Source: Candidatus Nomurabacteria bacterium GW2011_GWE2_34_25
GTDB taxonomy: Bacteria; Patescibacteriota; Minisyncoccia; Phycocordibacterales; UBA9973
Reading direction: 5' to 3'
Assembly (NCBI GenBank): GCA_000990325.1
Contig: LBPS01000007.1
Coordinates: 1-32,360, forward strand
Length of the DNA stretch: 32,360 bases
In this document: positions 14,959 to 21,071 of the stretch, piece by piece
Layout: every line of letters starts with the position of its first letter
How positions within the stretch are numbered: position 1 is the first letter of the stretch
Made by a program: the position numbers and the translations under genes
The notes under the pieces: generated by a model
Databases searched by the model: none
Seen by the model: the letters and a program-made list of their open reading frames with translations, nothing else
What the model was told of the DNA's origin: nothing

Positions 14959-14993
14959 TAATTTCGCCTAGGTCAGACCTAGGCGAAATTATT
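14957..14993. repeat. REP palindrome 1 (also terminator of the exporter operon)
   Basis: Perfect 18-bp arms around one central base: AATAATTTCGCCTAGGTC-A-GACCTAGGCGAAATTATT. The same GCCTAGGTC/GACCTAGGC core recurs inside the RAYT gene and at its stop codon. Confidence 0.85.
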
Positions 14994-15014: not shown

Positions 15015-15692
15015 ATGGCTATAAGAGATAAAAATTTAGTTATAAATGAATATTATCATTTATACAATCGTGGAAATGATAAAAAAGAAATTTTTTTAGA
15101 TGAAGAAGATTATGATCGTTTTATAAAGCTTTTATATATCTGTAATTCGAAAAATGATTTTAATTTTAGAAATTCTATTGTAAGAAATAAAATAAATGCT
15201 TTTGATTTTGAAAGAGGGGAACCTTTAGTTTCAATAGTTGGGTGGGTTTTAATGCCTAACCACTTTCATATTATTCTTATTTCGCATAGGTCTGACCTAG
15301 GCGAAGGAGATTATAATCCAATAACAGAGTTTCTACGAAAAGTTTCTACTGCATATGTAATGTATTTTAATAAAAAGTATGGAAAGACCGGTTCGTTGTT
15401 TGAGGGTAAATTTAAGTCAAAACATATTGGAGAAGAAAATTATTTTAATTATATTTTTTCTTATGTGCACTTAAATCCAATTAAATTGATTCAATCAAAC
15501 TGGAAAGAAAAGGGTATACTTGATAAAAATAACGCCAAAGATTTTTTAGAAAAATATAAGTATTCTAGTTTTCAAGATTATTTTGGTCAAGGAAGAAGAC
15601 AAGAGAATATACTTGATAAAAATTCTATTCCAGAATATTGTCTTTGCAACCATATAAAAGACTTATTTAAGTGGATTATTAAAGACGCCTAG
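15015..15692 (+). CDS. REP-associated tyrosine transposase (RAYT, Y1/HUH family)
   Basis: 225 residues. RAYTs are single-strand HUH nucleases related to IS200 TnpA that act on REP palindromes. Family marks: N-terminal YYHLYNRGNDKKEIFLDEEDYDRF, the HUH motif NHFHIIL (about residues 83-89), FLRKVSTAYVMYFNKKYGKTGSLFEGKFKSKHI, and the Tyr-containing helix YFNYIFSYVHLNPIK. A REP palindrome lies just upstream, another is embedded in frame right after the HUH motif (encoding about SHRSDLGEGD), and a third contains the TAG stop codon. There is no IS200-type end pair and no tnpB, so it is more like a domesticated or self-contained RAYT-REP unit than an ordinary IS. The predicted promoter gives a leaderless mRNA. 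The gene is AT-rich like its surroundings. Confidence 0.9.
   Translation: MAIRDKNLVINEYYHLYNRGNDKKEIFLDEEDYDRFIKLLYICNSKNDFNFRNSIVRNKINAFDFERGEPLVSIVGWVLMPNHFHIILISHRSDLGEGDYNPITEFLRKVSTAYVMYFNKKYGKTGSLFEGKFKSKHIGEENYFNYIFSYVHLNPIKLIQSNWKEKGILDKNNAKDFLEKYKYSSFQDYFGQGRRQENILDKNSIPEYCLCNHIKDLFKWIIKDA
15281..15305. repeat. REP palindrome 2, inside the RAYT coding sequence
   Basis: TTCGCATAGGTC-T-GACCTAGGCGAA, one mismatch between arms. It is in frame and encodes part of a surface-loop-like segment just after the HUH motif. Confidence 0.8.
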
Positions 15693-15735
15693 GTCAGACC
15701 TAGGCAAACTATGTAAAACAAACTGACCTAAGCGA
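15687..15735. repeat. REP palindrome 3 containing the RAYT stop codon, plus a half site
   Basis: GCCTAGGTC-A-GACCTAGGC at 15687-15705 is a perfect palindrome, and its first CTAG supplies the TAG stop (15690-15692). A degenerate half site, TGACCTAAGCGA, follows at 15724-15735. Confidence 0.8.
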
Positions 15736-19413: not shown

Positions 19414-20484
19414 TTATTCACCAGCGCTCGATATCTGTATTTCTCCAAAACGGCTTTTGACCTCTTTAAGGATTTCATCTGAGAGCTTTTTGTTCTCTCT
19501 CAAGTATATGCGAGCTGCATCGTATCCACGTCCAAGCTTTATCTCCTCCACTGGACCTTTCTCTTTTTGTTTGGCTGTTCCTAGATATGAGAATATTGCC
19601 CCGCTCGATTTACTGATAATTCCAAGCTTCTCTCCGAGAGCCATAATTTCTCCTTCACGAGAAATTCCTTCCCCGTATATAATATCGAATTCTGTTTGTT
19701 TGAATGGAGCTGCAACTTTATTCTTTACAACCTTCACTCTTGTACGACTCCCGACTACTTCCTCACCCTTTTTTATCTGGGCGATTCTTCGTATGTCGAG
19801 ACGGACAGAAGTATAGAATTTAAGAGCCTTTCCTCCCGGAGTAGTCTCAGGATTACCAAACATGACCCCGATCTGCATACGGATCTGGTTTATAAAAATT
19901 AGAGAAGTCTTAGAATGAGCGACTATGGCCGTGAGCTTACGAAGTGCTTGCGACATAAGTCTAGCCTGTTTACCCATGTGTTGCTGTCCCATATCGCCCT
20001 CGATTTCATCTTTCGGAGTGAGGGCTGCGACAGAGTCGATAACTACGACGTCTATTTTCCCAGAACGTACAAGACTCTCTGTAATCTCAAGGCCTTGTTC
20101 ACCGTTGTCTGGTTGAGAGATCAGAAGCTCTTTAATATTGACTCCAAGTTTACTAGCATAATCTGGGTCCATCGCATGTTCAGCATCAATATAGGCGCAT
20201 ATACCACCCTTTTTTTGAGCTTCTGCTACGATATGTAAGGCAAGAGTCGTCTTACCTGAGGATTCTGGGCCAAATATTTCTATCATACGGCCTCTGGGTA
20301 CACCACCGACTCCTAGGGCCATATCAAGACCGATTGATCCAGTAGGTATGACATCGATGTCTACCTTTGGAGCATCACCCAATTTCATAATTGCACCTTC
20401 GCCAAACTTTGTCTGGATTGATCTGATTGTATCCTCGATTTCTCCACCTGTTTCTTTTGGAGCCTTTTTTGCTTTTTTTATCAT
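19414..20484 (-). CDS. recA: Recombinase RecA
   Basis: RecA polymerises on single-stranded DNA, carries out strand exchange and stimulates LexA-type cleavage. The 356 residues show Walker [10 protein letters not shown], the motif [12 protein letters not shown], Walker [70 protein letters not shown] (L2/DNA binding) and the C-terminal ReDNK-type region. The N-terminal extension ([15 protein letters not shown]) is Lys-rich. There is no intein. The gene is divergent from nothing; upstream lies a 181-bp palindrome. Confidence 0.98.
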
Positions 20485-20494
20485 ATATTTATTT

Positions 20495-20675
20495 TTTGAA
20501 ATTAAAATAGTTTTTTAAAATAAATTTAGGGCGTATCTAAAATAGTCTTATCAGAGGGGCCGGCGGAGGCTGTCGAGCCGAGCACTGAGCAAATTTCTAG
20601 CAAGAAATTATGCGGACCCGATGAGAAGAGCTATTTTAGAGGAGCCCTTTTTTAAAAAACTATTTTAATTTCAAA
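20495..20675. repeat. 181-bp palindromic element with a GC-rich structured core
   Basis: Outer arms TTTGAAATTAAAATAGTTTTTTAAAA (20495-20520) and 20650-20675 are a perfect 26-bp match. Inner arms AGGGC...TCTAAAATAG (20528-20545) and CTATTTTAGA...GCCCT (20631-20648) pair next, with a three-base internal loop. A further imperfect helix encloses a ~52-nt core that folds into GGCT-GTCG-AGCC and GCAAATTTCT-AGCA-AGAAATTATGC hairpins. On the plus strand the helix ends GCCCTTTTTT, like a terminator. The core is much richer in G+C than its surroundings. It may be a non-autonomous mobile element or a small structured RNA; no ORF is inside. Confidence 0.75.
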
Positions 20676-20690
20676 GATTATTTTATAATT

Positions 20691-21071
20691 TTACTTACTA
20701 TTAAACGCGACTGTTCCCGCACTTTCTTTATAAACCAATTGGAACTTTTTCTCTTTACTTTTACCAAATTTATCTTCGGTATTAATTGTGATAACAGAAA
20801 ACCCAGGGATAAGAGCAATAGATTCTCTGAAACTTCCATCTTTATCTATATATATTTCTCTACCATTAAGACTTATATGAGTAGCATGCTCAGCCTTCCC
20901 AGTTATATAAGTAATAGCAGTGCCACTTCTTTCTATTGCAGCTTCTACCTGTACTCCTTTTAGCAAGAAAGACATTTTCATAAGAGCAAAAATTCCAATG
21001 GTCGAAAATAATACTACACAGGACATTGTCCCTAGCCACCACTTTATGTTTTTGTCTTTTATGCTTTGCAT
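20691..21071 (-). CDS. Small membrane-anchored Ig-like protein
   Basis: 126 residues: an N-terminal TM helix (WWLGTMSCVVLFSTIGIFALMKMSFLL, about residues 11-37) and an external beta-sandwich with the pattern ITYITGKAEHATHISLNGREIYIDKDGSFRESIALIPGFSVITINTEDKFGKSKEKKFQLVY. This resembles short bacterial Ig-like (glucodextranase B-type) modules that carry a G-R-x-I-Y-I-D-x-D-G-x-F motif. Such small anchored proteins are frequent beside DNA-translocase or division genes in Parcubacteria. Role unknown; it could be a cell-envelope partner of FtsK, inferred only from proximity. It lies 75 bp downstream of ftsK on the same strand. Confidence 0.7.
   Translation of the reverse strand: MQSIKDKNIKWWLGTMSCVVLFSTIGIFALMKMSFLLKGVQVEAAIERSGTAITYITGKAEHATHISLNGREIYIDKDGSFRESIALIPGFSVITINTEDKFGKSKEKKFQLVYKESAGTVAFNSK

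Follow-up and report, generated by a model that had tools for sequence, protein, structure and literature searches.

The palindrome upstream of recA

The palindromic element considered here occupies positions 20495-20675 of the window, the whole 32,360-nucleotide stretch of contig LBPS01000007.1 of Candidatus Nomurabacteria bacterium GW2011_GWE2_34_25 that was analysed. It separates two co-directional genes: downstream lies recA (19414-20484, minus strand), whose start codon is about 10 bp from the end of the element, and upstream a gene for a 126-aa protein with a Glucodextran_B-like domain (20691-21071, minus strand). Since both neighbours are on the minus strand, the plus strand, to which the element is assigned, is antisense to both, as an earlier note made from the letters alone had pointed out. 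Perfect outer arms of 26 bp (TTTGAAATTAAAATAGTTTTTTAAAA) lie at 20495-20520 and 20650-20675, the right being the exact complement of the left. Within them, inner arms of 18 nt each at 20528-20545 (AGGGC-GTA-TCTAAAATAG) and 20631-20648 (CTATTTTAGA-GGA-GCCCT) pair around a 3x3 internal loop formed by GTA (20533-20535) and GGA (20641-20643), the two halves of a GNA/GNA loop that recurs among related copies; AAATAG, on the side of the left inner arm, is the outermost motif that copies have in common. The conserved 64-nt core (20556-20619; 89.9 bits with our covariance model R1) consists of two hairpins and a short outer stem that closes both. Hairpin 1 (20568-20579, GGCT-GTCG-AGCC) and hairpin 2 (20589-20613, GCAAATTTCT-AGCA-AGAAATT-a-TGC) are both recovered in the predicted fold and both have covarying stems, with 99% of cells paired in the first. 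A run of six T residues follows on the plus strand at 20648-20653. The arms, inner loop, GC-rich two-hairpin core and T run all agree with the earlier description, which is confirmed by an inverted-repeat search and by a fold of -76.5 kcal/mol against -40.0 +/- 4.0 for shuffled sequences (z = -9.16; 0 of 200 shuffles as good). At 181 bp the recA copy is unusual for its family, in which 110-120 bp or so is typical. Comparison of the recA site across the genus shows that the left outer arm is similar to arms that an older element has at this site (AAAATAGTTTTTTAAAA), and the recA copy is probably a newer hairpin nested in, or replacing the centre of, that older one.

A dispersed family with a constrained core

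The recA hairpin belongs to a family of dispersed palindromic repeats in Patescibacteria that is apparently undescribed. The search for further copies that the earlier note had proposed returned many, in the source genome and in its relatives. A DNA search found 10 further strong copies of the element centre in the source genome (G000), and the covariance model found 26 copies of the core in the same 0.77-Mb genome at E <= 0.001. All 24 genomes of the genus that were searched carry the core, at 3-35 copies each, occupancy of individual sites varies even among close relatives, and core matches occur in 28 of 380 sampled Patescibacteria genomes, including members of other families, orders and classes. 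Patescibacteria genomes are among the smallest known, and in them the family reaches important genes such as recG and tsaD. Rfam gave no match to the recA element above gathering score or near threshold, the core pattern had no exact counterpart in IMG/VR viral contigs, and the open-access papers searched contained no account of REP-like repeats from Patescibacteria. Nothing specially links the family to recA, which is one of about 26 sites in its own genome.

The core is under structural constraint. Over 99 distinct aligned rows, 91.3% of pair cells hold standard pairs, and the covariation that the earlier note had suggested checking is strong: both sides of a pair have changed in 460 cells compared with 142 in shuffles (0 of 500 shuffles as high), a signal that is lost when the pairing is slid. 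Most core positions show several different pair types, counts that are not independent, the copies being related. G-U pairing is almost absent from both core hairpins, at 19 of 1378 cells. Cores also tend to resemble others in the same genome, with a mean identity of 0.78 within and 0.69 between genomes (means uncorrected for genome relatedness). At the recA site the core of the relative G004 is identical to those at three other G004 loci and 91% identical to that of the source genome; the four G004 copies share one 64-nt core and have different arms. More generally, the recA cores of G004, G019 and G001 each match another locus of their own genome perfectly and recA cores elsewhere at 64-91%, whereas those of G014 and G005 show no such preference for their own genome. 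Such within-genome sharing could equally reflect gene conversion among old sites or transposition.

Copies lie mostly at the 3' ends of genes. Context counts over 146 copies are based on ORFs and include spurious ones, and the whole-genome count for G004 is the cleaner: there, all but 1 of the 27 copies are intergenic, with 15 between co-directional, 10 between convergent and 1 between divergent genes, with convergent and divergent regions of equal total length. All 10 pairs of cores no more than 300 bp apart are inverted, and orientation relative to the replication strand shows no bias (12 vs 11). A minority of copies sit inside genes, in frame in recG of the source genome (L113), G004 and G017 (L193) and in tsaD of the source genome (L109), the G004 tsaD being without the element. 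In recG and tsaD of the source genome the element is translated in the same frame and, judged by eye from the DNA, yields a similar peptide, approximately SKK.S..LLRADG.NM.

Complementary arms and changing sites

Beyond AAATAG/CTATTT the flanks of different copies are unrelated, yet they pair within each locus. Across 146 distinct copies, the 25 nt nearest the core on each side pair at -19.3 kcal/mol with their true partner and at -8.1 with a swapped one, and in 119 of the 146 the own arm does better than all 20 swaps. In 39 copies the arms contain a perfect run of 8 bp or longer some 20 nt or farther from the core, compared with 3.9 on average after swapping. Among 37 calls (36 copies) of 3x3 loops flanked by 4-bp stems, 24 are GNA/GNA, every one of them 18-21 nt from the core, where the recA copy has its GTA/GGA.

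Sites were compared between the source genome and G004 by taking the flanks of the source copies to the G004 genome. The element is present in the source genome and absent from G004 at tig-clpP, C5:8631 and C13:36394, an absence that could in part reflect loss from G004 instead of gain in G000. The empty sites define no target-site duplication, the boundaries being blurred by the locus-specific arms. At four sites (recA, pcrA-ksgA, the junction between a 290-aa gene and rpmB, and glmU-trxB) the core stands in opposite orientations in the two genomes within arms that are kept. This inversion lends indirect support to the earlier suggestion of a recombination-prone cruciform. The earlier note had named arms that decay in sister species among the observations that would refute it; in the sister genome G004 the arms of the recA site are retained.

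Individual junctions differ in what they hold. Across the genus, about half of the genomes have the family at the recA junction, several have other palindromes there and a few have neither. At the end of pilB an ordinary terminator is found in some genomes and the element in others, and the sites at a ZIP-like gene and at nusA have a different palindrome in G004. The junction of the 290-aa gene and rpmB has the same insertion point in G000, G004, G003 and G009. This point falls within the final codons of the 290-aa gene, the stop codon of which then belongs to the AAATAG of the element, and a separate rpmB terminator persists alongside. Other palindrome families at recA and further junctions in G010, G021, G020, G003 and G004 have cores such as GTCCTCGGACGAGGG, CGCTTTACCCAGANTACTGGGCTCCGAC and TAGGGCCCCTTTGGGGTAAAG, and CCCACACCTATATTTTTAT repeats are numerous in G004. 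In several genomes a core copy lies on the far side of recA also (L189, L059, L187, L055, L057), so that elements flank recA on both sides in at least G001 and G014.

A probable DNA hairpin and its alternatives

We consider it likely that the family is a non-autonomous dispersed palindromic repeat, of the sort represented by REPs, MITEs and Rickettsia palindromic elements, that acts as a DNA hairpin. The earlier note had also offered a regulatory RNA, and a cis-acting structured RNA (whether 3' UTR hairpin, terminator or mRNA stabiliser) in which the core is conserved and the closing stem varies freely, as riboswitch P1 stems do, would agree with the strong core covariation, with the location of copies at gene 3' ends and with the plain terminator that takes the same place at the pilB end of some genomes. 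However, copies are randomly oriented with respect to transcription (42 vs 39 in the ORF-based context count), and G-T and A-C mismatches are equally common in arms on the transcribed strand (33 vs 35), so that a function of the RNA in the host transcript is unlikely. The near absence of G-U pairs from the core hairpins, the ordinary terminator kept by rpmB beside the element and the lack of any Rfam match near threshold point the same way. Nor does the recA copy qualify as an intrinsic terminator, its T6 being on the antisense strand and a scan confined to short simple hairpins giving no terminator-like match there. On the element's own strand G-T mismatches outnumber A-C in the arms (89 vs 31), but because many fall at one position and the copies are related we do not use this excess as evidence. 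The structured-RNA explanation is, overall, improbable. Of the readings put forward in the earlier note, the MITE-like one has the best support, from a repeat that is multicopy, palindromic, mostly intergenic and variably present at orthologous sites.

If the family were instead a REP-like repeat moved by a resident REP-associated tyrosine transposase (RAYT), one might look to the RAYT-like genes of 19 of the 24 genus genomes, one of them 5 kb away in the window, and to the location at 3' ends, the inverted pairs and the donation of a stop codon, all of which are habits of REPs (PMC3733652). Against this, the RAYT genes inspected in the source genome have no core next to them, the one in the window is flanked by an unrelated palindrome of its own, five genomes without a RAYT match still have 3-18 copies, and there is no terminal GTAG. 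A RAYT as mobiliser was rejected, with no linkage seen and a copy number that does not simply depend on RAYT count, and we regard this reading as unlikely. The RAYT/Y1-like gene of the window (15015-15692; NF047646, 41.7 bits, below cut-off) has the palindrome GCCTAGGTCAGACCTAGGC at 14962-14990 and 15685-15706, with a third similar copy inside the gene near 15281-15306.

Two further alternatives concern the history of the sites. The copies might be old, vertically inherited hairpins with little or no present transposition, their cores homogenised by gene conversion and their arms kept symmetrical by fold-back template switching. Consistent with this, the recA site is filled in many members of the genus with diverged arms, core identity within G004, G019 and G001 exceeds identity at the same site, one insertion point at the 290-aa gene holds several core types, and the plain terminator hairpin at the pilB end of G017 (L092) extends into the final pilB codons to form a perfect palindrome of 26 bp. 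The clean absence of the element from several sites argues against it, as does the lack of a general excess of mirrored coding ends in G004 (2 observed vs 0-2 after swapping, genome-wide); fold-back is therefore not a genome-wide habit and we do not offer it as a proven mechanism. We hold this explanation to be possible, though on balance doubtful. Alternatively, the arms could be pre-existing palindromes such as terminator stems, into the centre of which the element was inserted: in G001 the point at which G009, G003, G000 and G004 carry the insertion is occupied by a 10-bp palindrome (AAACTAGTTT), and the arms at pilB are an A-tract and a T-tract. Yet the empty tig-clpP and C13:36394 sites have no such palindrome, and other relatives have none at the 290-aa-gene site; we regard this proposal as rather unlikely. 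Insertion into a small palindrome would account for one site and fold-back copying for others.

Like the REPs, BIMEs and REPINs of the GTAG and CGTC superfamilies, the family is palindromic, dispersed, near gene 3' ends and found as inverted dimers, and REPs too sometimes supply a stop codon or sit inside genes (PMC3733652). Some REP dimers lie within longer palindromes (PMC3733652). Like Rickettsia palindromic elements, it consists of palindromes of about 100-150 bp, some of them in frame in genes and encoding a similar peptide (PMC10969869), here in tsaD and recG of the source genome and in recG of G004 and G017; it differs in being mostly intergenic and in a different phylum, and the likeness is one of description. 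In contrast to REPs (20-40 bp stem-loops), the family is three to four times longer, with a branched core and locus-specific complementary arms, and is bounded by GNA loops and AAATAG where REPs have a terminal unpaired GTAG or CGTC tag. It also differs from GTAG REPs in having no linked RAYT, no core flanking the inspected RAYT genes of the source genome as it would in a REPtron. To our knowledge, CGTC REPs likewise have no linked transposase. With MITEs such as ERIC, Correia, RUP and SPRITE it shares the character of a short, multicopy, non-autonomous and non-coding repeat with hairpin potential and an occupancy that differs between species and close relatives, but it has neither fixed inverted repeats at its termini nor a clearly defined target duplication: its outer arms vary by locus, and no autonomous partner with shared termini was present in the loci inspected. 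Mitochondrial double-hairpin elements, GC-rich two-hairpin units scattered in AT-rich DNA and thought to be mobile, seem comparable by description. The family works like a REP or a MITE, and we do not class it as a member of either.

The simplest reading is that of a DNA hairpin handled in trans by a putative enzyme. The unit would be a hairpin about 110-120 bp long, of DNA or single-stranded DNA, comprising the 64-nt double-hairpin core, the AAATAG/CTATTT stem, the 3x3 GNA/GNA loop and complementary outer arms particular to the locus. Its spread or copying between sites may be the work of an enzyme supplied in trans, whose substrate is probably the extruded or single-stranded hairpin; most surviving insertions would be those at gene 3' ends, where the harm is smallest, and some local process may give rise to the outer arms or keep them complementary. 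More speculatively, and with low confidence, we suggest a mobile hairpin whose movement or upkeep makes complementary, locus-specific arms from local DNA, and whose core can be exchanged between sites and inverted in place while the arms of the site stay. We know of no such insertion mode or palindrome maintenance described for bacterial repeats. Identity of cores together with arms that differ yet match raises a directly testable question, namely by what process palindromes form and last in bacterial chromosomes.

A separate observation was made upstream of ruvB (L072, about 1335-1475), where a strongly conserved, probably structured non-coding stretch, AACATAAATCTCTAAACAATCCTTTG...GATTGCTTAGAGAT, lies between pilB and ruvB. 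It has no Rfam match above threshold and is found in the same place in about 22 genomes of the genus.
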